From Planctomyces sp. SH-PL62 (GTDB taxonomy: Bacteria > Planctomycetota > Planctomycetia > Isosphaerales > Isosphaeraceae): 64,000 nucleotides of DNA. A model generated the notes under the pieces. The model saw nothing but the letters and a program-made list of their open reading frames with translations. It ran no database searches and was not told the DNA's origin. Where the stretch lies: positions 5,766,001 to 5,830,000 of the forward strand of contig NZ_CP011273.1 in assembly GCF_001610895.1 (NCBI RefSeq). Direction: 5' to 3'. A program made the translations under genes and the position numbers. Positions 33,557-63,861 of this stretch are shown here, in pieces. Within the stretch, counting starts at the first letter, position 1, and the number at the start of each line of letters is the position of its first letter.

Positions 33557-34333
33557 TCAGGTCCCGAATTCGGGGCGGCGTAGGGAGAGCTGCGACTGGA
33601 GCCGCTGGATGATCGACGAGTGCATCTGCGAGACGCGGGATTCGCTCAGGTCGAGCGTCGCGCCGATCTCCTTCATCGTCAGTTCCTCATAATAGTAGAG
33701 GATGATGATGAGGCGTTCGTTGCGGTTGAGCCCCTTCGTCACCATGCGCATCAGGTCTTTGCGCTGGAGCCGACGGGTGGGGTCCTCCCCCTTCTTGTCC
33801 TCGAGGATGTCGATCTCGCGGACGTCCTTGTAGCTGTCGGTCTCGTACCACTTCTTGTTGAGGCTGATGAGGCCGACGGCGTTGGCGTCGGACGCCATCT
33901 TCTCGAACTCCTCCATCGGCAGGCCGAGTCGCTCGGCCAGCTCGGCGGGGGTGGGAGGTCGGCCGTGCCTGGCCTCCAGCTCCTTGCGAGCCTCTTCCAT
34001 CTTGGTGGCCTTGGAGCGGACCAGCCTGGGCACCCAGTCCATGGTCCGCAGCTCGTCGAGCATGGCCCCCCGGATCCGCGGGACGCAGTAGGTCTCGAAC
34101 TTGACGCCGCGCGTCAGGTCGAAGGCGTCGATCGCGTCCATCAGGCCGAAGACGCCCGCCGAGATCAAGTCGTCGAGGTCGACCCCCTCGGGGAGGCGCT
34201 GCCAGATGCGTTCCGCGTTGTACTTGACCAGGGCCAAGTAGCGCTCGACCAACTGGTTCCGCATCTCCGTGGTGGGCTGTTCCTTGAACTCCCGCCAGAG
34301 TTCCGTCACATCCACATCCACTTTGGTTGACAT
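33557..34333 (-). CDS. fliA: RNA polymerase sigma factor FliA/WhiG (sigma-28)
   Basis: 258 residues from ATG 34333 with GGAGGT 5-6 bases upstream. Region 2: LALVKYNAERIWQRLPEGVD and DLISAGVFGLMDAIDAFDL; region 3: EEARKELEARHGRPPTPAELA; region 4: LNRNERLIIILYYYEELTMK with helix-turn-helix MKEIGATLDLSESRVSQMHS. These are the FliA/WhiG features. Sigma-28 directs late flagellar genes in motile bacteria. It ends the flagellar export run here. No FlgM-like anti-sigma gene was found nearby. Confidence 0.95.
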   Translation of the reverse strand: MSTKVDVDVTELWREFKEQPTTEMRNQLVERYLALVKYNAERIWQRLPEGVDLDDLISAGVFGLMDAIDAFDLTRGVKFETYCVPRIRGAMLDELRTMDWVPRLVRSKATKMEEARKELEARHGRPPTPAELAERLGLPMEEFEKMASDANAVGLISLNKKWYETDSYKDVREIDILEDKKGEDPTRRLQRKDLMRMVTKGLNRNERLIIILYYYEELTMKEIGATLDLSESRVSQMHSSIIQRLQSQLSLRRPEFGT

Positions 34334-34644
34334 CCTGACCTCCGTGTCGGCTGCGCGAGGGGGCGCACATCCCTGTGCGGCCCCCGGCGACGGACGAGGA
34401 ATCCGTCCCCGGTGATCGCGGGGCGTTTCGCCCGATCCACCGCGTCCCGCCCCGCCGGGGTCCCGGTCCGCGTCGATCGGGGTCGTCGCCCCTGTCCCCT
34501 CGCCATTCAAGGAACTCGATCCTCATTACTCATCGGACGATCCGGCCATTCGTCTTGAGCCTTGCCATCCGAAGAATCCGAACAACCCGCGCGATCAAAC
34601 CAACCCCGCCCATCCCTGGGTGTGGGGAGGCCCCGTCGCGGCGG
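34334..34644. other. Gap where flhG would be expected to continue
   Basis: Between the 65-residue DQAxxLR gene and fliA. No ATPase domain or other ORF of sense is encoded on either strand. Only the fliA ribosome-binding site (GGAGGT) was recognised. Confidence 0.5.
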
Positions 34645-34842
34645 TCACCCCGCGTTCCGGGGGGTCCCGCGTCCGCCCCGAGGGGCCTGTCCCGAGAGCC
34701 ATCCGGCCCGAACGGACGCGTCCCGGAGCCCGGGGGCTTCGCGGTCGGCGTCGATGCGGGGGGACGCGGGTGCGGAGGTCATCCGCTCCCAGTCCCTCTG
34801 GGCTCGAACCAGTCGTCTCAGGCTCTCGGCTTGGTCGTTCAT
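34645..34842 (-). CDS. 65-residue FlhG N-terminal-like protein (possible FlhF activator)
   Basis: From ATG 34842, which has a GGAGG site exactly 6 bases upstream, the protein reads MNDQAESLRRLVRAQRDWER and then a Pro/Gly/Arg-rich tail. DQAESLR matches DQAxxLR, the N-terminal helix by which FlhG (YlxH) of Bacillus stimulates the FlhF GTPase. In most polar-flagellated bacteria flhG, a MinD-like ATPase of about 290 residues, stands between flhF and fliA; here only the activator segment remains. An alternative coupled start (ATG 34923, overlapping the flhF stop) would add 27 Arg/Ser-rich residues. It could be a working mini-activator or a remnant; the good ribosome-binding site favours expression. 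Confidence 0.68.
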   Translation of the reverse strand: MNDQAESLRRLVRAQRDWERMTSAPASPRIDADREAPGLRDASVRAGWLSGQAPRGGRGTPRNAG

Positions 34843-34919
34843 GGAACGCCTCCGTGGGGACGCGGCGGAAAGGGACGAGGCACTCGGCGATCGGTCTCGG
34901 TCTCGGTCTCGGGCTCGAT

Positions 34920-36053
34920 TCATGCGATCGACTCCTCGCCCAGGATCAGGCGGGCGAGCCGGTCGCGGGCCGCGAGTTCGAGGTCGTCGGGGACGGCCTG
35001 GCCGGTCGTCAGATAGGCGACCGGTCGGTCGGCGCGACCCAAAACCGCGAGCAAGGGCCCCAGAGTCTCGGCTTCGTCGAGCTTGGTCAAGATCAAGCGG
35101 TCGGGACGGGCCGGAGCGAAGAGGTCGGCCGCGGCGCGCAGGCCGCGGGGCGAGGTCGACGCCGACAGGACCAGATGGACCTCGTCCGGCCGAAGACGCC
35201 CCAGCAGGTCGCCCAGCTCGCGGATCCGGTCCTGGTCGCGAGGGCTCCGCCCGGCGGTGTCCACGAGGACCACGTCCACCGCGCCAAGGTCGTCCAGGGC
35301 GCGTCGGGCGGCGTCGGGATCGTCGGCGACGGCCAGCGGCAGGTCGATGATGTCGGCGTAGGTCCGAAGTTGTTCCACGGCGGCGATCCGGTAGGCGTCC
35401 ACCGTGAGGAGGCCGACCTTCACGCCCTGACGGAGCTTGAGCGAGGCGGCGAGCTTGGCGAGGGTCGTCGTCTTGCCGACGCCCGTCGGCCCGACCAGCG
35501 CCACGACCCGCCGCGTCCCGGAGACCGCCCGGATCGGCGGCGCGACGGCCAGGGCGTCTTCCAGGGCTCGCCGGACGGCCGCCAGGGCCGCGGCGGGGGT
35601 CGCCAGGTCCTCCGGCGCCGAGCCGCTCGCGGCCTCGCGGACGAGGGCCCGCGCCGACGGCTCCGGCGCGTCGGCCTCCAGAAGTCGGGCGTAGGCCGAG
35701 GCCAGTTCGCGGGGGAGGTCGGGCGACCACTGCTCCATGAGGCCGCGTCGGCTGAGCGCGCCGACCATCGCGTGGACCCGGCCCAGGTCGCCCCGCAAGC
35801 CGCGCGGCGGCCTGGCGGCGGCGGGGGCCGCGAGCCATTCCGAGGACGGCGACGAGGCGTCGACCTCGACCGTCGAGTCGGCGGACAGGCCGAAGAGCCG
35901 TCGGCGGCGGACCTCGCGGGCGGCGAGGATCACGGCGTCGCCGCCGAGGTCCCGGCGCACCCGCGCCAGCGCTTCCCGCATCGTCCGGCCTCGATAGGTC
36001 CTGGCGTCCACGGCCCCTTCCATCCCCCGCATTGCGGGCCTCTCGACGCTCAT
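34920..36053 (-). CDS. flhF: Flagellar SRP-type GTPase FlhF
   Basis: 377 residues. The N-terminal B region opens RTYRGRTMREALARVRRDLG. The NG GTPase domain has G1 VALVGPTGVGKTTTLAKLAA, VDAYRIAAVEQLRTYADII, G3 VLVDTAGRSPRDQDR and G4 LILTKLDEAETLG. FlhF places or numbers polar flagella and is activated by FlhG. The start overlaps the flhA stop as ATGA. Its motifs are intact, which suits the idea that the DQAxxLR mini-protein downstream acts on it. Confidence 0.94.
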   Translation of the reverse strand: MSVERPAMRGMEGAVDARTYRGRTMREALARVRRDLGGDAVILAAREVRRRRLFGLSADSTVEVDASSPSSEWLAAPAAARPPRGLRGDLGRVHAMVGALSRRGLMEQWSPDLPRELASAYARLLEADAPEPSARALVREAASGSAPEDLATPAAALAAVRRALEDALAVAPPIRAVSGTRRVVALVGPTGVGKTTTLAKLAASLKLRQGVKVGLLTVDAYRIAAVEQLRTYADIIDLPLAVADDPDAARRALDDLGAVDVVLVDTAGRSPRDQDRIRELGDLLGRLRPDEVHLVLSASTSPRGLRAAADLFAPARPDRLILTKLDEAETLGPLLAVLGRADRPVAYLTTGQAVPDDLELAARDRLARLILGEESIA

Positions 36054-38317
36054 GCGAACGCCTCGGTCGTCGCGAACGTCACCGGATCGACCGCGGGCTC
36101 GGCCGCCTCGGAGTCCTCGGCGGGCTCCTCGACGATCGTCCCCAGGACCTCGACGGGCGTGTCGCGGGGGATCTCGCGCTGGCTGAGGACGACCAGCCGG
36201 GGCAGGTCGGCCCGGGTCAGGTCCTTGAGCACGGCGCGGGCCGGGGCCGAGGTCAGGACGATCGGCGGCAGGCCGACCTCGATCAGGGCGCCCACGCCTT
36301 GCGCCACGGCGCGGAGGATGCTGCGGACGGTCTCGTCGCCCAGGGCTTCCGAGGGATGGGCCTCGGACTGGCCCGCCACGATCGAGAGCCGGGAGTTGAG
36401 GTCCTGCGAGAGCGTGACCACGCGGATCCGGCCGTCGCCCGAGCGGTGGCTCTCGGTGATCTGGCGCGCCAGGCTCTGGCGGGTCAGCTCGGTCAGCGGC
36501 TCGACGTCCGTGGTCTTGCCGGCGTGGACCGCCAGCGTCTCGAGGATCGTCTCCAGGTCGCGGATGCTCACCTGTTCGCGCAAGAGATTCTGCAAGAGCC
36601 GCTGAAGTTCGCCCGGCCTGAGCAGCCCGGGGACGACCTCGCCGGCGAGCGTGGGGGCCGTGGCCCGGACGCGGTCGAGCAGGCGTTCGATCTGGTCGCG
36701 GGTGAGCAGCTCGTCGGCGTGGCTGCGGACGATCTCGCCGAAGTGGGCGGCGACGACGGCCGACGCCTCCAGGATCTTGCAGCCGGCCAGCTCGGCGACC
36801 TCGCGGCCCTCGGCGTGGATCCAGACGGCCGCCTCGCCCGTGGCCGGGTCGACGGCCTCACGGCCTTCGGGACGCTCGGCCAGGCCCGCCGGCGGGATCG
36901 CCAGCAGGCGCCCGGCGTAGGCCGTCCCGCCGCCGACGATGGTCCCACGGATCTTCACCCGGTATTCGTGCGCGGAGAGCCCGATCTCGTCGTGGATGCG
37001 GACCTGGGGGACGATCAATCCCAGCTCGCGGGCGACGTTCTGGCGGACGGTCCGAAGCCGCTCCAGCAGGTTCCCGCCCCGGGTCGAGTCGGCCAGGCTG
37101 ATGAGTCGATAGCCGATCTCCAGCTCCAGCAGGTCGACGTGCAGGAGGTTCTCCATGTCGTCGGAGGCCGGGTCGCCGGAGACGCGGAGGGGCTCGGCGT
37201 GCGGGGCCTGGGGGGAAGGGTTCGGCCGGGTCGTCGTCGGTTCGGCGGAGCCCGCTTCCTCGACCCGGATCGGCGTCCGCTTCGGGGGCGAGGTCGGCCG
37301 TGCTTCGGGCTCGGCCTCGTCCCGTTCGTAAGGGGACGCGTCCCGCAGCCGATAGGCCCGCCAGCCGAGGACGCCCGACAGGACCAGGAGCGGCAGCTTG
37401 GGGAGCGGCGTGAGGGCCAGCAGGCCGAGGAAGACCGACGAGACGCCCAGCACGCTGGGATTCCGCGTGAGCTGGCCGACGACGTCGCGGCCGATGTCGC
37501 TGGCCGAGGACGACCGCGTGACGATCAGGCCCGCCGCCAGCGAGATCAGGAACGCCGGGATCTGGCTCACCAGCCCGTCGCCGATCGTCAGCTTGGTGAA
37601 GACCTCCACGGCCTCGACCGGCCGCATGTCGTGCTGGACCACGCCGATGAACAGGCCGCCGGCGATGTTGACCATCAGGATGATCACGCCCGCCACGGCG
37701 TCGCCCCGGACGAACTTGCCGGCGCCGTCCATCGCCCCGAAGAAGTCGGCCTGGCGATAGACCTCGTCGCGACGGGCGTGCGCCTGATGCTGGTCGATCA
37801 GCCCGGCGTGGAGGTCGGAGTCGATGGCCATCTGGCGGCCGGGGAGGCCGTCGAGCATGAACCGCGCGGCGACCTCGCTGATCCGCGTGGCCCCCTTCGT
37901 GATGACGACGAACTGGATCACGACGAGGATCGCGAAGAGGATCGCGCCGACGAGCACCTGGTCGCCGGCGACGAACTCGCCGAAGGCCCGGATGACCGAG
38001 CCGGCCGCGTCGACGCCGTGCTCGCCGCCCCGCGTCAGGATCAGTCGGGTGGTGGCCACGTTGAGGACCAGCCGGGTCAGCGTGGTCGTCAGCAGGATCG
38101 TCGGGAAGGCGCTGAACTCCTGCGGCGATCGGATCGCCAGCGTCGTCAGCAGCACCAGGACGGCGAGCGTCAGGTTGGCCGACAGGAGGAGGTCGAGCAG
38201 CTCCGGGGAGACCGGCACGACGAAGACCAGGACCGCCCCGACGATGGTGATCGGCAGGACGAGTCCCGAGGCGGTTCGCCACGCGGCGGCGGCACGATCC
38301 GATGTCGACGGAGGCAT
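36050..38317 (-). CDS. flhA: Flagellar export gate protein FlhA
   Basis: 755 residues from ATG 38317. Eight membrane segments are expected in the first 330 residues. The FHIPEP-type cytoplasmic loop is well conserved: GRQMAIDSDLHAGLIDQHQA, then ADFFGAMDGAGKFVRGDAVA with the key Asp. The C-terminal cytoplasmic domain is present (VRIHDEIGLSAHEYRVKIRG and PTLAGEVVPGLLRPGELQRL). FlhA forms the nonameric ring that energises export with the proton gradient. The length is slightly above the usual 690-700 because of a Pro-rich linker. It is coupled to flhF. Confidence 0.95.
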   Translation of the reverse strand: MPPSTSDRAAAAWRTASGLVLPITIVGAVLVFVVPVSPELLDLLLSANLTLAVLVLLTTLAIRSPQEFSAFPTILLTTTLTRLVLNVATTRLILTRGGEHGVDAAGSVIRAFGEFVAGDQVLVGAILFAILVVIQFVVITKGATRISEVAARFMLDGLPGRQMAIDSDLHAGLIDQHQAHARRDEVYRQADFFGAMDGAGKFVRGDAVAGVIILMVNIAGGLFIGVVQHDMRPVEAVEVFTKLTIGDGLVSQIPAFLISLAAGLIVTRSSSASDIGRDVVGQLTRNPSVLGVSSVFLGLLALTPLPKLPLLVLSGVLGWRAYRLRDASPYERDEAEPEARPTSPPKRTPIRVEEAGSAEPTTTRPNPSPQAPHAEPLRVSGDPASDDMENLLHVDLLELEIGYRLISLADSTRGGNLLERLRTVRQNVARELGLIVPQVRIHDEIGLSAHEYRVKIRGTIVGGGTAYAGRLLAIPPAGLAERPEGREAVDPATGEAAVWIHAEGREVAELAGCKILEASAVVAAHFGEIVRSHADELLTRDQIERLLDRVRATAPTLAGEVVPGLLRPGELQRLLQNLLREQVSIRDLETILETLAVHAGKTTDVEPLTELTRQSLARQITESHRSGDGRIRVVTLSQDLNSRLSIVAGQSEAHPSEALGDETVRSILRAVAQGVGALIEVGLPPIVLTSAPARAVLKDLTRADLPRLVVLSQREIPRDTPVEVLGTIVEEPAEDSEAAEPAVDPVTFATTEAFA

Positions 38318-38574
38318 TCCATTCCACTCCCAACGGACCGAACGACGTACGCCCCACGACGCCGGCGCGGAGAGCGATCTTCGCCCCGCGCCATCCCGCC
38401 GAAACCTCCCGGCCATCCTCGCCGGCCGCCCCTCGCAATCGAAGGGAGGGCGACCCGTCGAGCCTTGTCCCGATGGGCCCGAATCGGCCCACGTGATGTG
38501 TGCGGGGACAATACTTCGATCGCCCCGGATTGTCCAGGGCGAATGACGCTCCGGCCGGGGTTTCGGCGGCCGGA

Positions 38575-38800
38575 TCAGGCGATCGGCCAGGCCTCGCGAA
38601 GCTGGGCGAGAAGGAGGGGATCGGCGATCGCCGTTCGGGGCGCGGAAGCGTCCGGCCGCGACGCGATCCGCAAGGCCAGCTGCGCCGCCTCGCGTTGCGG
38701 GAGCTTCGACCGGACGGCCGCCTGGCGGATCGAGGCGGCCGTCGCGCCCCTCGCGACGACCCTCACGAACACCTTGCGCGGCGGCGGGCCCCCGCGAGCA
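38575..38800 (-). pseudogene. Out-of-frame C-terminal part of flhB
   Basis: PPPRKVFVRVVARGATAASI and KLPQREAAQLALRIASRPD continue the FlhB cytoplasmic domain but lie one base out of frame with the upstream part. Inserting one G in the GCGGGGGCCC run (about 38787-38795) joins them into a 343-residue protein ending LLAQLREAWPIA. The joining point corresponds to the NPTH autocleavage site of normal FlhB. Confidence 0.65.
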
Positions 38801-39605
38801 CGACGACGAGCCCGGCGTCGCCGAGCAGGGCGAGCGAGGAGCCGTCCAGCAGCTCGGGCGTGCCGTCGCGAAACGCCTGGGCGAGCCGCCGACGCGAGGC
38901 GCGGACCTTCGGGTCCCCCTCGATCGTCCGCAGGTCCTCGCGATGCTCCTCCGGGGTCGTCCTCAGCATGGCCTCGAACCGGGCGGACCGAAGGCCGTAA
39001 TCCACCAGCCCCACGGCGAGCATCGCGCCTGCCAGGGCCCACGCGGGGGTTGTGAGGATCGCGAACGCGGCCCGCGCGGCCTCGGGGAACTCCAGGAAGC
39101 TCAGCCCCTGCAAGGCTCCCCACCGCGAGCGAACGCCCCAGGCCGCCACGACCGCCAGGATCATCGCCTTCACGACCGACCAGACGCTCCGCTCCAGCTT
39201 CGCGACGAAGCCCCCGTCCCGTCCCACCCGCCACAGCCGCGAGAGATCGGGCGTGATGAGGGCCGGAGCCCAGAGCCCGCGGACCTGGAACTGGTGGCCC
39301 GCGAACGCGCCGAGGGCGAACCCGCCCACCACCACGCCGACCGGCAAGGCCACGCCCAGCATCGCGTCTCGCACGATCCGGGCCAGGTCGAACGGGTCCG
39401 AAAGTCGGGCGACGGGGCCGATCAACGGCGACCGCACGAGGTCGACGAGCGCCCCGGTCAGCCGGGTCTCCATCCCGGCCAGCAGCGCGACCGCCACGAG
39501 CCAGCCGGCCGCGGCGGTCAGCTCCGGGCTGTGCGCCGCCTGGCCCTGCTCGCGGGCGAGCTGGCGACGCATCGGTGAAGCGGGCTGCGTGCGATCCTCC
39601 GACAT
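38763..39605 (-). CDS. flhB: Flagellar export switch protein FlhB, frameshifted, no NPTH
   Basis: From ATG 39605 (GGGAGG upstream) the readable frame gives 280 residues. SPMRRQLAREQGQAAHSPEL is the basic FlhB start; about four membrane segments follow, and the linker GDPKVRASRRRLAQAFRDG matches the FlhB cytoplasmic linker. Normal FlhB then has VxxNPTH, cleaved between Asn and Pro to switch substrate class. Here the aligned segment is LVVVLAGG-PPP, so NPTH is absent, and the frame breaks exactly there, ending RRRARCS. Either a base is missing in the sequence or the two halves are made separately. It lies between fliR and flhA, as usual. Confidence 0.85.
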   Translation of the reverse strand: MSEDRTQPASPMRRQLAREQGQAAHSPELTAAAGWLVAVALLAGMETRLTGALVDLVRSPLIGPVARLSDPFDLARIVRDAMLGVALPVGVVVGGFALGAFAGHQFQVRGLWAPALITPDLSRLWRVGRDGGFVAKLERSVWSVVKAMILAVVAAWGVRSRWGALQGLSFLEFPEAARAAFAILTTPAWALAGAMLAVGLVDYGLRSARFEAMLRTTPEEHREDLRTIEGDPKVRASRRRLAQAFRDGTPELLDGSSLALLGDAGLVVVLAGARRRARCS

Positions 39606-39625
39606 CGATCCCGTTCCTCCCTCGC

Positions 39626-40393
39626 TCAGAAGGCGCCGCGAGCCCAGTCGAGCCAGGCGGCGTCCAGGCAGGCCGCCAGCGCGGCGAGCCCCGCCATCAC
39701 GAGCAAGACGCCCAGCAGCGCGCGGATCGGCAGCGAGAGCGCCATCAGCGGCACGCTCGGCGCGAGCCGGCCGAGCCATCCCAGGGCCACCCCCGCCGTC
39801 GCCAGCGCGACCGCCGGCGGCGCGGCGGCGTGGACCGCCAGCTTGAGCGCCTCGGCCGCCTGCGCGAAAATCCCCTGGATCGTGGCCCGCTCGAAGACCA
39901 GCCGACCGGCCGGGACCGCGCGGAAGCTCTGGAGCAAGGCCTCGACCATCACCAGCGGCCCGTCGACCGCCAGGAACGCGACGATCGCGAGCAGGCCGTA
40001 AAGATGCCCGAGCGCCGTCAGCTCCTCGCCCGTCTCGGGGTCGAACAGCGACGCCGTCGACATCCCCGCCTGCGCCGCGACGAGGTCGCCCGCCTGCTTC
40101 GCCCCCGCGACCACCAGCGACGCCGACAGCCCGAGCAGGCCGCCGACCAGAAGCTCGTTGACCACCAGCCAGGCCAGTCCGTAAGGCGAGGTCGGCGCGC
40201 CGACCAGCGGCGCGGCGAGGGGGATCATCCAGGCCCCCAGGATCAGGGCCAGGACGATGCGGAACCGCCAGTCGATCCCCGGCGCGGCCAGCACCGGCGC
40301 CGTGAAGCAGACCCCCGCCGCCCTCGCCGCGATCAGGGCGCAGGCCGCCCCGTTCGCGGTGAGCCAGCCGACGTCGAACGGTAGGTCGGTCAT
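39626..40393 (-). CDS. fliR: Flagellar export protein FliR
   Basis: 255 residues, six or so membrane segments. ARAAGVCFTAPVLAAPGIDW and RFRIVLALILGAWMIPLA are the FliR start; LAWLVVNELLVGGLLGLSAS and AGMSTASLFDPETGEELTAL are further conserved blocks. FliR is part of the FliPQR export channel inside the basal body. The length is normal. Its stop is 20 bases from the flhB start. Confidence 0.93.
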   Translation of the reverse strand: MTDLPFDVGWLTANGAACALIAARAAGVCFTAPVLAAPGIDWRFRIVLALILGAWMIPLAAPLVGAPTSPYGLAWLVVNELLVGGLLGLSASLVVAGAKQAGDLVAAQAGMSTASLFDPETGEELTALGHLYGLLAIVAFLAVDGPLVMVEALLQSFRAVPAGRLVFERATIQGIFAQAAEALKLAVHAAAPPAVALATAGVALGWLGRLAPSVPLMALSLPIRALLGVLLVMAGLAALAACLDAAWLDWARGAF

Positions 40394-40418
40394 CTCGGCG
40401 CCGCCCTTCGCATCCAGA

Positions 40419-40679
40419 TCAAAGCATATCCGGGATCGAGCCGATGAGGTCGACCGTGAAGTCGATCCAGCGGGCCGCGAGCCAGGGGAGCAGCACCAAC
40501 GTCGCGACCACCACCGCCGCGAGGCGGGGGACCAACCCGACGACCGGCTCGTTCAATTGGGTCAAGGTCTGGAGGACGTTCACCGCCAGCCCGACCACCA
40601 TCGCCGCCGCGAGCAGCGGGCCCCCCAGCATCAGCGAGAGCCTAAGCGCCTCGCGCGTCCAGTCGATCGCCTGGTCCAT
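40419..40679 (-). CDS. fliQ: Flagellar export protein FliQ
   Basis: 86 residues with two membrane hairpins: MDQAIDWTREALRLSLMLGG, VVGLAVNVLQTLTQLNEPVV and LVPRLAAVVVATLVLLPWLA. These are the FliQ blocks, including Q-x-LTQLNE. It belongs to the FliPQR channel. GTG 40685 is an equally good start since the GGAGGGGGG site lies better spaced for it; a GTG at 40703, directly after the fliP stop, is less likely. Confidence 0.92.
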   Translation of the reverse strand: MDQAIDWTREALRLSLMLGGPLLAAAMVVGLAVNVLQTLTQLNEPVVGLVPRLAAVVVATLVLLPWLAARWIDFTVDLIGSIPDML

Positions 40680-40703
40680 GTCCACGCGGAGCCCCCCTCC
40701 CAC

Positions 40704-41603
40704 CTAAGCCGAAAATCCGGCGAGCAGCATGTCGGCCACGAGCAGCCAGCCGTCGGCCAGCACGAAGACGATCAGCTTCACGGGCGTCGAAACCAGGGTC
40801 GGCGGCAGCATGAACAGCCCCATCGCCGCCAGCACCGCCGAGACCACGAGGTCGATCACCAGGAACGGAAGATAGAGCATGAACCCGATCTTCAGGGCCG
40901 TCGTCAGCTCGCTCAGGATGTACGCCGGGGCGACCACGCCGATGGCGAAGTCCTCCGGGCGTTCCGGCTGCTCCGCGCCCGGCGTGCCGCCGCGCGAGCG
41001 CTCGTGGAGCGTCGTCAAGTAATCCTGATGTTCGGTCATGACGATCTGGTCGACCATGAACGTCTTGATGGGGATCGACCCCGCGTTCCAGGCGTCGACC
41101 GCGCCCGCCCGGCCCGCCATGTACGGCTCGACCGCGTCGGCGTAGACCCGTTCGGCGACCGGCCGCATGATCAGGGCGCTGAGCAGCAACGCCAGCGCGG
41201 TCAGGACCTGATTGCCGGGGACCTGGGGGCTCCCCAGGGCCTGCCGAAGCAGGATCAGGACGATGTTGATCCGCACGAACGGCGTGATCATGAGCAGGGC
41301 GACGGGCGCCAGCGAGACCGCGCCGAACAGCACCACCGACTGCACCGTGCGGGCCGCGCCCGACACGTCCACCGCCGCGTCCGGCCGCGGCGCGGGCTTC
41401 GCGGCGTCCGATTCGGGGGCCGCATCGACGACCACCGCGGGCTCGTTGAGCCGCGAGACGGCCGCGGACTTGCGCACGGCGCTCGTCGGCGTCTGCGCCT
41501 GCGACCGCCCCGCCAGGACCGGCGAGAGCATGACCAACAGCGCCACGACGCTCGCCATCGGGAGGACGAGGAGTTTGCGGTCTTCCCTCCGCGTCCCGCT
41601 CAT
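40704..41603 (-). CDS. fliP: Flagellar export protein FliP
   Basis: 299 residues. A signal peptide (LPMASVVALLVMLSPVLAG), as in other FliP proteins, then a nonconserved stretch to residue 85. Conserved core: ITPFVRINIVLILLRQALGS, PQVPGNQVLTALALLLSAL, PIKTFMVDQIVMTEHQDYLT, APAYILSELTTALKIGFMLY and LVVSAVLAAMGLFMLPPTLV. It forms the core of the export channel. The start overlaps the fliO stop as ATGA, and its TAG precedes fliQ by 24 bases. Confidence 0.95.
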   Translation of the reverse strand: MSGTRREDRKLLVLPMASVVALLVMLSPVLAGRSQAQTPTSAVRKSAAVSRLNEPAVVVDAAPESDAAKPAPRPDAAVDVSGAARTVQSVVLFGAVSLAPVALLMITPFVRINIVLILLRQALGSPQVPGNQVLTALALLLSALIMRPVAERVYADAVEPYMAGRAGAVDAWNAGSIPIKTFMVDQIVMTEHQDYLTTLHERSRGGTPGAEQPERPEDFAIGVVAPAYILSELTTALKIGFMLYLPFLVIDLVVSAVLAAMGLFMLPPTLVSTPVKLIVFVLADGWLLVADMLLAGFSA

Positions 41604-42088
41604 GATTCGTCTCCGATCCGCACGTCGAAGCGTCTTTGCGCGGGGACCGGTCGATGCGAAGCGGAGGGCGAGGCGTCCTCGACGGCCTCGTCGTCAAGCT
41701 CGCCGAGGAGCGTGGGTGCGCCCTGGGGGCCGGCGCCGATCAGCAGCGTCCGGCCGCCGGCGCGGACGGCGAAGACGGCGTGTTTGGGCGGCAGCGCGAC
41801 TCGGCCGACGACCTGGAGCTTGATCGAGGGGCCGCCCGCGCCCTGACGTCGCGCGGCGATGCAGACCACTCCGGCCCCGCCCAGGACCAGCAGCATGAAG
41901 GCCGTCCCCAGCCACCAGCCCTGCGACCCGGTCGCCAGCGACGACGCCCGCGCCCGCTTGCTCGCGACCGTCGGCCGCGAAGCCTTCGCCGCGTCGGCCG
42001 CGGGGGCGGAAGCGTCCTGCGCCGAGGCGGCCAGGGTCGCCGCCAGCAGCAGCGCGGGGACCAGGAGGGCGATCTTGGCTCTTGCCAT
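41600..42088 (-). CDS. fliO: Flagellar biosynthesis protein FliO-like
   Basis: 162 residues: signal peptide (IALLVPALLLAATLAASAQ), an Ala-rich stretch, one membrane helix (WLGTAFMLLVLGGAGVVCIA), and a short cytoplasmic domain with IKLQVVGRVALPPKHAVFAV and GRTLLIGAGPQG. The 'vvgrvaLxpkhavxvvrvggr.lLlG' pattern is the FliO signature. FliO helps FliP assemble. Position before fliP and coupling by ATGA support the call. Confidence 0.88.
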   Translation of the reverse strand: MARAKIALLVPALLLAATLAASAQDASAPAADAAKASRPTVASKRARASSLATGSQGWWLGTAFMLLVLGGAGVVCIAARRQGAGGPSIKLQVVGRVALPPKHAVFAVRAGGRTLLIGAGPQGAPTLLGELDDEAVEDASPSASHRPVPAQRRFDVRIGDES

Positions 42089-42144
42089 GCGAGAGTCCTT
42101 CGTGAGTCGCGGGTGCGGTTCGGCGGGGGTCGGCCGGGCGGGGG

Positions 42145-42789
42145 TCAGACCAGGACTTCCTCGCGACCGCTGGGGTCGGGCAGGTCGATCACGCCCTGGT
42201 CGTAGAGGATGCGGATCCGCTCCGAGACCTCGACCTGCGCGACCTCGGTGTCGGAGAGCCGGAACGGGCCGAGGTTCTCCAGATAGCGCTGGAGCATCTG
42301 ACCGGCCGAGGCGTTCAGGGCGCCGAGCACCTTGGCCCGCAGCGGGGGGGCCGATCCGGCGAGGGCCAGGGCCCAGGCCTCGGCGTCCTCGGCGCGAAAG
42401 GCGGCGCGGATCTCGCGGTCGTCCATGCGGAGGAGGTCTTCGAAGACGAAGCAGAGCCGCCGCAGGCCGAGGCTGAGGAACTCCTCCAGGACGACGGCCT
42501 GCTCGGCCGGGTCGACCCGATCCATCCGGGCGATCTCCCAGGTGACCGCGTCGACGGCGTCCCGATCGAGATGGGCGAGCATCTGGGTGGATAGCGACTG
42601 CTCCAGGCTCACCAGGACGATCGCCGCCTTGCGGAGCGGGGGGATCGCGGCGACCGACGGGGCGTCGGACGGCGAATCTTCGGCCGCGAGGGGGTCGGCC
42701 CCCGCGCCGAGGTCGCCGCGCGGGAACTCGGCGCCGGATTGGGGGCGGTGGGCCGCTCGGGCGGACGTGGACGAGGTCGACGCATTCAT
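42145..42789 (-). CDS. Short FliG-like protein without middle domain
   Basis: 214 residues against about 330 in typical FliG. Residues 50-100 match the FliF-binding N-terminal domain (LRKAAIVLVSLEQSLSTQML), and residues 105-205 match the C-terminal domain (CFVFEDLLRMDDREIRAAFR; LENLGPFRLSDTEVAQVEV). The middle domain with EHPQR, which binds FliM, is missing. In an alignment by eye the stator-facing residues of E. coli FliG, K264, R281, D288 and D289, become A, S, R and Y; only R297 is kept. It may hold FliF or assemble an export platform rather than produce torque. Coupled to fliF by ATGA. Confidence 0.88.
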   Translation of the reverse strand: MNASTSSTSARAAHRPQSGAEFPRGDLGAGADPLAAEDSPSDAPSVAAIPPLRKAAIVLVSLEQSLSTQMLAHLDRDAVDAVTWEIARMDRVDPAEQAVVLEEFLSLGLRRLCFVFEDLLRMDDREIRAAFRAEDAEAWALALAGSAPPLRAKVLGALNASAGQMLQRYLENLGPFRLSDTEVAQVEVSERIRILYDQGVIDLPDPSGREEVLV

Positions 42790-44300
42790 GACCTTCCCCC
42801 CCCCTGGCTCGTCCAGCGATTCAGCACGCTGAACGCGGTCTCGGGATTGCGGCGGACGAATTCGAGCACCCGTTCGGTCGGCGCCGGCGCGCCCGCCGCG
42901 CCTCGGTGATATCGCAGATCGCCTCGCGACGGCGAGGCCCGTCGGGCCGGCGGGCGGCTGCCGAAGAGCCAGGTGCCAAAGGCCACCAGCGAGGCGGCGG
43001 CGGCCCCCGCCGCGCCCGCCATCGCCCAGTCGCGAGCCGACCGCCGCGACGACGCCGCGACGCTCGCCGGCGTGTGCTCGGGGGGCATCCCGTCGAGCAA
43101 AAGCTCGACGAGCGTCGGCTCCCAGTCGACCGGATCGGCCTCGGGGACGACCAACTCGACGGTGTCGCGTATCAGCGCCTCGGTGCGGTCCTTCAGGGCG
43201 AGGTGCTCGTCCTGCGAGGCGTGGCCGCCGTCGGGCATGAGGCCGGCGTTGAAATAGTAGCTTCGCGGCACGAGCACCCGGACCCGGCCCCGGCCTCGGG
43301 CCGGCTCGGGGGCCTCGGCGACCGCGACGGTTTCGGCGGCGGGAGGCAGGTCGTCCGGCTCCAGTTCCATGGCGCGATTGAGGCCGACGGCCAGCCCCGC
43401 CTCCAGCGGCGATGCGGTCCCGGGGCGTCGCCGCGCGGCGGTTTCGGTCGCGCGGGGCTCGGGAGGAGCGGGCGGGTCCTCGATCTTCACGTCGACCCGC
43501 GCGCCCTTGATCCAGTCCAGCTTGTCGAGGATGCGGCGGCTCAGGTCTTCCTCGCGGGCCCGGTTGTTCGAGAGCGCGGTGAGGGCCGGGTTGTCGGCGT
43601 CGCGGTAGAGGCGGCCCTCGTCGTCGACGACGGTGAACGATTGCCGGGTCAGGCCGGGCTCGGCCGCGGTGAGGATCGAGGCGATCGACTCGACGGTGGC
43701 GGAAGGAAGCTCGCGGGTCTGTTCGGTGCGGACTCGCACCAGGGCCGTGGTCCGGGTCGTCGGCCGCAGCACGCCGCGCTGGCGTTCGCGGCTGATCCAG
43801 ACGAAGGAGCTTTCGACCCCCGGCAGGTCGTCGATCATCGATTCGAAGACCTTGGCCCGCTCGCGCTGGGAGCGTTCCTCCTTGTCGCGAGGGGATTCCC
43901 AGAAGGACGAGGCGGCGGCGCCCTCGCGCAGCTCGTCGAGCGAGCGCGGGCCGAGGTCGAGCTTGGCGACGATCGCGGCGGCGGCTTCGGCCGATCGGCC
44001 GGCGACGCTCACGCGGCGGTCGTCCACCTTGTAGTCGATGTTCTGGGAGAGGAGCGCCCGCTCGACCTTGTCGAGGTCGTCCTGGCGGAAGGGCCGTCCC
44101 GAGGCGAGGTAGGCGCGCTCGGCCGGGGCGATCGACCAGGCGGCCAGGCAGCCGGCGACGGCGAGGCCGCCGGCCATCAGGGCCAGCAGCGCGAACCGCG
44201 CGGGTGCGGACCGTCCGGCCGTCGCCTTGCGGGTGCCATCGAGCCAGGAGCGGAGACGGGCCGGCGTCTTGCCGAGAGCGTCGAAGCGGAAGGTCGCCAT
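42786..44300 (-). CDS. fliF: Flagellar MS-ring protein FliF
   Basis: 504 residues from ATG 44300 with GGAGG five bases upstream. Membrane helix 1 (FALLALMAGGLAVAGCLAAW), a RBM1-like domain (DDLDKVERALLSQNIDYKVD), RBM2 (MIDDLPGVESSFVWISRERQ; LTRQSFTVVDDEGRLY), a Pro/Glu-rich inserted part, PRSYYFNAGLMPDGGH near the beta-collar, membrane helix 2 (AGAAAASLVAFGTWLFG), and the FliG-binding tail FVRRNPETAFSVLNRWTSQG. The MS ring is the base of the export apparatus. A TTGACA/GATAAC promoter lies upstream and probably drives the whole flagellar run. Confidence 0.93.
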   Translation of the reverse strand: MATFRFDALGKTPARLRSWLDGTRKATAGRSAPARFALLALMAGGLAVAGCLAAWSIAPAERAYLASGRPFRQDDLDKVERALLSQNIDYKVDDRRVSVAGRSAEAAAAIVAKLDLGPRSLDELREGAAASSFWESPRDKEERSQRERAKVFESMIDDLPGVESSFVWISRERQRGVLRPTTRTTALVRVRTEQTRELPSATVESIASILTAAEPGLTRQSFTVVDDEGRLYRDADNPALTALSNNRAREEDLSRRILDKLDWIKGARVDVKIEDPPAPPEPRATETAARRRPGTASPLEAGLAVGLNRAMELEPDDLPPAAETVAVAEAPEPARGRGRVRVLVPRSYYFNAGLMPDGGHASQDEHLALKDRTEALIRDTVELVVPEADPVDWEPTLVELLLDGMPPEHTPASVAASSRRSARDWAMAGAAGAAAASLVAFGTWLFGSRPPARRASPSRGDLRYHRGAAGAPAPTERVLEFVRRNPETAFSVLNRWTSQGGGRS

Positions 44301-63327: not shown

Positions 63328-63861
63328 ATGTCGCGCTCGTCCACGTCGCACACGCTGAACCCGAACCTGACGCCGCTGCTGGACCTGGTCCTCCAGCTGA
63401 TCACGTTCTTCATGATGCTGGTCCACTTCGGCAACCAGATCGAGGGTGAGACCCGCGCGGTGCGGCTGCCGCTGGCGCCCGCCGCCCTCCCCGGCGCCGA
63501 CCTGGCGCTGGACCGGCTCGCCGCCGCGATCGACGCCCGGGGGAACCTCCTGGCGGACGGCCGGGTCTACGAGGGCGAGGACGCCTCGGCCTGGTGGAAG
63601 CGACAGGCCGAAGCCCGCCGCGCCGGGCTCGAACTGATCCAGACGGCCCCGGCCGCCGAACCGACCCGCCCCGAAACCCCGACGCTTCGCCTGCAATTCC
63701 CGGCCCCGACTCCCGATCCCGGCGGTGAGCTTCCCACGGTCGTGGTCCTCCGGGCCGACCGCGAGGCGTCGTTCGGCGCGGTGCGGAAGACGCTCGCCGA
63801 GGCGCAGTCGCTGGGCTTCGCCAATTTCAGCCTCGTGGTCCTGAACCGGGAGGAGCCGTGA
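63328..63861 (+). CDS. ExbD/TolR-family protein
   Basis: 177 residues. NPNLTPLLDLVLQLITFFMM is the single membrane helix with the channel Asp, as in ExbD/TolR. The periplasmic part ends PTVVVLRADREASFGAVRKT and LAEAQSLGFANFSLVVLNR, the usual ExbD fold. It acts with the ExbB-like protein 25 bases upstream. Its stop overlaps the next ExbD gene as GTGA. Confidence 0.92.
   Translation: MSRSSTSHTLNPNLTPLLDLVLQLITFFMMLVHFGNQIEGETRAVRLPLAPAALPGADLALDRLAAAIDARGNLLADGRVYEGEDASAWWKRQAEARRAGLELIQTAPAAEPTRPETPTLRLQFPAPTPDPGGELPTVVVLRADREASFGAVRKTLAEAQSLGFANFSLVVLNREEP

Follow-up and report, generated by a model that had tools for sequence, protein, structure and literature searches.

The window analysed here is a stretch of 64,000 nucleotides from Planctomyces sp. 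SH-PL62, a member of the Isosphaeraceae (contig NZ_CP011273.1; G000:C1:5766001-5830000 in our genome numbering, G000 comprising 6.78 Mb in 5 contigs and being 100% complete). It carries a set of flagellar export genes, all on the minus strand, in the order fliF-fliG-fliOPQR-flhB-flhA-flhF, followed by a micro open reading frame (micro-ORF) and the gene of a FliA/WhiG-family sigma factor (Table 1). This order, and the coordinates, agreed with an original prediction made from the sequence alone. The locus lies downstream of ftsY (named from its sequence by eye), and the 4-base overlaps of fliF/fliG, fliO/fliP and flhA/flhF indicate an operon-like arrangement. The nearest named relative was Paludisphaera soli JC670 (FliG 88% identical; same genus by the grouping used), followed by Aquisphaera insulae, Singulisphaera acidiphila and Tautonia sociabilis. 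With modest confidence, sequence comparison favours the view that the locus encodes a flagellum-derived, FlhF-positioned, ATPase-less, non-rotating export complex that would have been kept by selection.

The export gate was intact, as had been claimed, with clear matches for FlhA, FliP and FliR (scores in Table 1). FlhA was detected in 42 of the 45 family genomes surveyed (21 genera; 26 genomes counted as good), representing at least 20 genera and all 26 good genomes. None of the 42 sequences had an internal stop, and relatives in which the gate decays through stop codons were not seen. The three genomes without FlhA were 85, 83 and 64% complete. The NCBIfam model for flagellar FlhA outscored that for SctV, and of the parts expected of an injectisome neither an SctV-type gate nor an SctN ATPase (0/45 over the cut-off) was found. 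In a phylogeny of planctomycete FlhA sequences, in which no SctV sequences were included and from which the wrongly short rows of G015, G037 and G038 were excluded, 17 family members formed one clade (100/100), sister to the FlhA of ten genomes of the same class (96/87), seven of which have flagellin. On this tree the family FlhA is placed as a descendant of the Planctomycetia flagellar FlhA.

The remainder of a flagellum was searched for with profiles that gave matches over the cut-off in four flagellated control genomes each time. Flagellin (PF00669) and FliE were each found in 0/45 family genomes. For the MotB plug no match exceeded the cut-off in any of the 45 (one match was weak; MotA was not searched). 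The same held for the FliI/YscN ATPase model TIGR01026, which covers both fliI and yscN; its best matches reached at most 237 bits (cut-off 379.5) and belonged to proteins resembling the F1 ATPase, two of them encoded 2 kb apart in the Planctomyces sp. SH-PL62 genome. The rod/hook domain PF00460 (Flg_bb_rod) was present in three genomes only (G006, G018 and G043). Thus the complete genome that holds the window has no detectable MotB plug, flagellin, rod/hook protein or FliE, and no FliI over the cut-off. A second complete set of flagellar genes was also not found in it: it has one FlhA, one FliG_C domain and one SpoA-domain protein, and a second FlhB or FlhG, like MotA, FliH and FlgH/FlgI, was not searched. 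As no stator, rod or filament is in evidence, rotation is not expected.

The same pattern would arise from an ordinary flagellum if its axial, stator and ATPase proteins had diverged beyond the reach of the profiles, since profiles can miss fast-evolving proteins and MotA lay outside the searches. This is highly improbable, as five profiles failed together in the same genomes and those family members that have been described do not produce motile swarmers (PMC5352709). Furthermore, flagellin was found in 17 of the 20 other genomes of the class that were listed (all 20 with FlhA), and a test of 33 planctomycete genomes detected FliI in 25. Across a phylum sample of 294 genomes, FlhA was present in 177 and flagellin in 163.

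The original prediction had described a FliG that lacks the FliM-binding middle domain and has lost most of its stator-facing charges. The first part of this claim extends to the whole family. In the window protein, Pfam recognised FliG_C at residues 108-203 (77 bits) and the first half of FliG_N at 51-106 (48 bits), and no separate middle domain. The protein measured 182-214 amino acids (aa) in all 31 family genomes in which the gene could be read, and in each of these an N part is fused to the C domain; the stretch that corresponds to residues 70-219 of L201, an ordinary planctomycete FliG of 331 aa, is missing from every aligned family protein. The AlphaFold2 model of FliG was confident from about residue 50 to 200; its N part resembled the FliF-bound FliG-N 5tdy_B (Z 11.3, 1.6 Å over 66 residues) and its C domain the FliG-C 3ajc (Z 13.9, 1.8 Å over 94 residues). 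Three of a set of 28 loci were excluded from the structure alignments, namely L201 and L202, with ordinary FliGs (331-332 aa), and L203, in which an open frame includes the middle domain. The second part of the claim did not hold, as the two acidic positions of the stator-facing loop were kept in 19/31 and 26/31 family FliGs, with a K or R beside the pair in 26/31. The partner protein FliF retains both membrane helices, RBM1/RBM2/RBM3-like ring-building parts between them and C-terminal FliG-binding helices in its AlphaFold2 model (mean predicted local distance difference test score 72), which resembles FliF rings by Foldseek. The C-terminal segment was conserved across the family alignment, from which locus L193 was excluded.

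In 11 family genomes (L110:9766-10083, L111:15190-15495, L122:2798-3148 and eight further relatives), a second small gene (102-117 aa) with a FliG_C-like domain overlaps the end of fliG. It looks like a split FliG or a doubled C domain, and none of the genomes read from the window's genus has it.

The losses of the FlhB NPTH motif and of all of FlhG except its activator motif, both noted originally for the window, were also confirmed. NPTH was absent from 26/26 family FlhBs; the C domain was reached in 19 of these, and 18 of the 19 carry a (G)GGPPP-like pattern at the place of NPTH, where the flagellated class member G211 has NPTE. Without NPTH the usual Asn-Pro cut is impossible. The flhB of the window also differs from that of four aligned congeners by a one-base frameshift near 38794, which puts the C-terminal domain out of frame. 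The cause is either an error of assembly or a lesion of very recent origin, and the family does not share it. Outside the family, G318 (L229:5217-6017), a genome of the same class with FliI and no detectable flagellin, has a truncated FlhB of 266 aa. FlhB therein and in genus g20 of the family ends just before the cytoplasmic C domain with a similar short proline/serine-rich tail, in two separate aflagellate planctomycete lineages.

All that is left of FlhG in the window is the micro-ORF, with DQAESLR. Among the 31 genomes with a readable flhF, 15 encode a full MinD-type FlhG with DQAxxLR and 11 (genera g1, g2, g6 and g8) have only an ORF of 59-78 aa that starts with this motif. The FlhG gene was cut by the end of the locus in G015 and G024, and the FlhG of G034 came from BLAST and not from the motif scan. 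When the micro state is mapped on a separate FlhA tree, four changes are required, and strong branch support makes three of these unavoidable; in that tree the FlhA of G038 was read in the wrong frame (branch length 10), and the grouping of the micro-ORFs is independent of it. Three independent truncations that removed the FlhG ATPase domain, with a single subsequent loss, would be the most likely history. Over the first 20 codons of the micro-ORF, median dN was 0.10 and median dS 0.64 within the window genus, so that the motif is under strong constraint, and the tail is unconstrained. The micro-ORF resembles the enhancer helix of FlhG (YlxH/FleN) in having DQAxxLR at its extreme N terminus and in lying directly after flhF, and is unlike FlhG in standing alone without a MinD-type ATPase domain. 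According to PMC12826062, the Gln of this motif stimulates the FlhF GTPase; PMC12826062 and PMC12327844 describe FliG as held by the N-terminal region of FlhF.

Selection was assessed as the ratio of non-synonymous to synonymous substitution rates (dN/dS; NG86, medians over pairs of window-genus genomes, six genomes or five for the micro-ORF and the SctQ-like gene described below, with no neutral control gene). The ratios were 0.19 for FliQ, 0.24 for FlhA, 0.27 for FliG, 0.30 for the SctQ-like protein, 0.31 for FliR, 0.33 for FlhF, 0.34 for FlhB, 0.37 for FliP, 0.40 for the micro-ORF, 0.42 for FliO and 0.50 for FliF. The genes of the locus are under purifying selection, including the three singled out originally for such a check (flhA, the fliG-like gene and the micro-ORF).

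The intact gate and the sigma-28 factor had both been put forward against a dead locus. The argument stands for the gate, with FlhA intact in 42 genomes and the ratios above, and fails for the sigma factor. The latter is 89-99% identical among the relatives searched, and its dN/dS of 0.06 (the G000-G031 pair, with dN 0.90, resulted from a wrongly chosen start) is far below that of the locus, which makes it unusable as evidence for the system; it may have another job. A sigma-28 promoter scan of the window gave 19 loose matches against 6.6 expected, none of them, in our judgement, immediately ahead of any gene of the locus, and was not used. Upstream of the sigma gene, window positions 34333-34620 translate to similar residues in several genera without a common ORF, which hints at conserved regulatory DNA.

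Table 1. Genes and gene parts of the flagellar export locus, with positions in the window.
Feature	Coordinates	Strand	Length and evidence
fliF, MS-ring protein	42786..44300	-	504 aa; YscJ_FliF 64 bits; AlphaFold2 model with Foldseek matches to FliF rings
fliG-like, N part fused to C domain	42145..42789	-	214 aa; without middle domain
fliO	41600..42088	-	162 aa; Pfam FliO 34 bits
fliP	40704..41603	-	299 aa; Pfam FliP 211 bits
fliQ	40419..40703	-	94 aa from the listed GTG; tblastn matches in relatives; between fliP and fliR
fliR	39626..40393	-	255 aa; Bac_export_1 150 bits
flhB, in-frame part	38763..39605	-	280 aa; no NPTH; frameshift near 38794
flhB, out-of-frame remainder of C domain	38575..38794	-	stretch open in congeners
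flhA	36050..38416	-	788 aa from the longest start; FHIPEP 766 bits; TIGR01398 747 bits, SctV 499 bits
flhF, signal recognition particle-type GTPase	34920..36053	-	377 aa; SRP54 143 bits
micro-ORF, reduced FlhG	34645..34842	-	65 aa; DQAESLR; no Pfam match; aligned with full FlhGs
FliA/WhiG-family sigma factor	33557..34333	-	258 aa; TIGR02479 267 bits; neighbour, may not belong to the system

A further candidate component is encoded at C1:4182837, 1.6 Mb from the locus. It is a protein of 396 aa (read across two stretches) with SpoA domains, and one such protein per genome was found in 34/45 family genomes. Its layout is that of a FliMN fusion, like the SctQ of the injectisome sorting platform, and SctQ was also its best NCBIfam model. 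In contrast to SctQ itself, the proteins of four family members scored 80-93 bits, below the cut-off of 100.8, with FliN and FliM lower still, and among solved structures the C-terminal SpoA domain was nearest to FliN. As this is the only SpoA protein of the Planctomyces sp. SH-PL62 genome, and FlhA its only export gate, the SctQ-like protein was assigned to the system by exclusion, and would belong to it. Beside the gene in this genome (L003:866-5871) are response regulators, a hybrid kinase and a PAS kinase. Among 18 relatives this two-component cluster was complete in 8 (with three of its genes and a poor kinase match in G028) and so is not general; it is possibly a control input.

Several observations weigh against a functional export complex. 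The SctQ-like gene is unlinked and missing from 11/45 genomes, including 5 of the 26 good ones, and FliG_C is missing from 7/45. No DQAxxLR FlhG or micro-ORF was seen in G012, G032 and G033, the corresponding ORF of G032 having lost the motif. FlhB is frameshifted in the window and ends before the C domain, at 259-262 aa, in the four genomes of genus g20, and the stem of the family FlhA clade is long (0.96 changes per column). The surroundings of the loci yielded neither a substrate nor an outer-membrane channel nor any other candidate among the neighbours (secretins were not searched), and a search for conserved neighbours, in which many clusters were shadow ORFs, gave no further gene common to most loci. 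Such features might indicate a slow relic, in which the outer flagellar parts were lost early in the family and the rest is eroding, with the constraint left from a partial or moonlighting use. The continuing losses (the FlhB C domain in g20, the FlhG ATPase domain, the SctQ-like gene), the window frameshift, the long stem and the ratios of FliF and FliO, which are not tight, all fit with this. We regard it as rather unlikely, since FlhA is intact across at least 20 genera, the ratios of FliQ, FlhA, FliG and FliR are 0.19-0.31, and the remodelling is coordinated across the family, with the FliG fusion in 31/31. The original description of the locus as remodelled rather than simply decaying, and as probably non-rotating, is supported by this comparison across the Isosphaeraceae.

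If the locus encodes an export complex, this would derive from a polar flagellum of which the inner-membrane half is left. FlhF would place FliF, probably at a pole, by holding FliG, and the helix derived from FlhG would reset FlhF by stimulating its GTPase, even where this helix is a free micro-protein. FliF would form a ring around the gate, with the SctQ-like protein acting as a cytoplasmic loading platform, and the proton motive force alone would drive export. Export independent of the ATPase is possible in Salmonella mutants (PMC4230889). The cleavage-based FlhB switch may have been lost because a single substrate class is exported, and what is exported would end up either in the periplasm or in a short axial piece that has escaped recognition. 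A polar landmark is a different possibility: FlhF, FliF, FliG and the gate would be retained to mark a position in the cell for budding or growth of the envelope, and export would be secondary or absent. Both FlhF and the motif of its activator have been kept, the described members lack FtsZ and MreB (PMC5352709), and the failure to find a substrate or outer-membrane channel is in line with such a role. It is nevertheless distinctly unlikely, as FliP, FliQ, FliR, FlhB and FlhA are needless for a marker and yet are retained, FliQ and FlhA being the most constrained proteins of the locus.

With regard to known systems, the locus resembles the Planctomycetia flagellar basal body and export apparatus in FliF, the FliG domains, FliOPQR, the flagellar-type FlhA, FlhB as part of the gate, FlhF and the FlhG motif. 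It is unlike that flagellum in having no detectable rod or hook (with the three exceptions above), flagellin, FliE, MotB plug or FliI, and in lacking the FliG middle domain and the FlhB NPTH. The hook-basal bodies of Buchnera, which is non-motile, are built from a reduced set as well and differ in keeping the rod, hook and ATPase. The closest concept was the secretin-less non-flagellar type III secretion system (T3SS) of the Myxococcales (Abby and Rocha 2012, PMC3459982), which is described there as strictly vertical and as lacking FlgBCDEK, FliE, FliG and MotAB. The likeness lies in the vertical, taxon-wide occurrence without FlgBCDEK, FliE and MotAB. The family system differs from it by its flagellar-type FlhA and by keeping FliF, FliG and FlhF, and no type III ATPase was found (secretin and SctF were not searched). 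Chlamydia keeps flagellar FlhA, FliF and FliI and is thus another case of flagellar parts kept in non-motile bacteria, although with the ATPase FliI. The partial flagellar sets and reduced rods in the accessible parts of PMC12199754 (motility loss) and PMC10746217 (Actinobacteria) do not present this combination.

No published account of the system was recognised in searches outside which most subscription papers lie, the sole mention being a remark that flagellar genes show 'poor representation' in four members; these literature searches also gave nothing relevant on either a free-standing FlhG helix or a non-flagellar T3SS of planctomycetes. Other Planctomycetota with FlhA and without flagellin were considered as carriers of the same system and rejected, as 19 of 26 such genomes have FliI, including 10/10 of family f19; the 26 were picked by eye from the FlhA and flagellin lists, with at least G135 and the weak G212 left out. 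We read family f19 (G059, G087, G127, G145, G207, G234, G246, G257, G268 and G290), with a divergent FlhA, FliI and no flagellin, as having a different reduced flagellar or non-flagellar T3SS. FlhA without flagellin or FliI was seen in G301 (L224), G310 (L225), G161, G192, G244, G128 and G050, the first four of which are possible parallel reductions. Elsewhere in the window, a small gene at 63328-63861 resembles ExbD/TolR by eye.

More tentatively, and at somewhat less than even confidence, the family may represent a second independent conversion of a flagellum to non-flagellar type III export, outside the injectisome lineage. This conversion would combine the lack of an ATPase with an SctQ-like platform, a FliG without switch domain, a non-cleaving FlhB and a free FlhG helix acting as a GTPase-activating micro-protein for FlhF. 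If true, a type III export gate would have been kept naturally across a bacterial family without an ATPase or a recognisable axial structure, and, separately from the injectisome, a flagellum would have lost motility and retained its export core. It would then be testable what the gate does alone, how FlhB works without cleavage and whether the activator helix suffices for the FlhF-FlhG switch, an experiment that evolution seemingly ran about three times here. The locus would also be a concrete target for deletion in bacteria without FtsZ and MreB.

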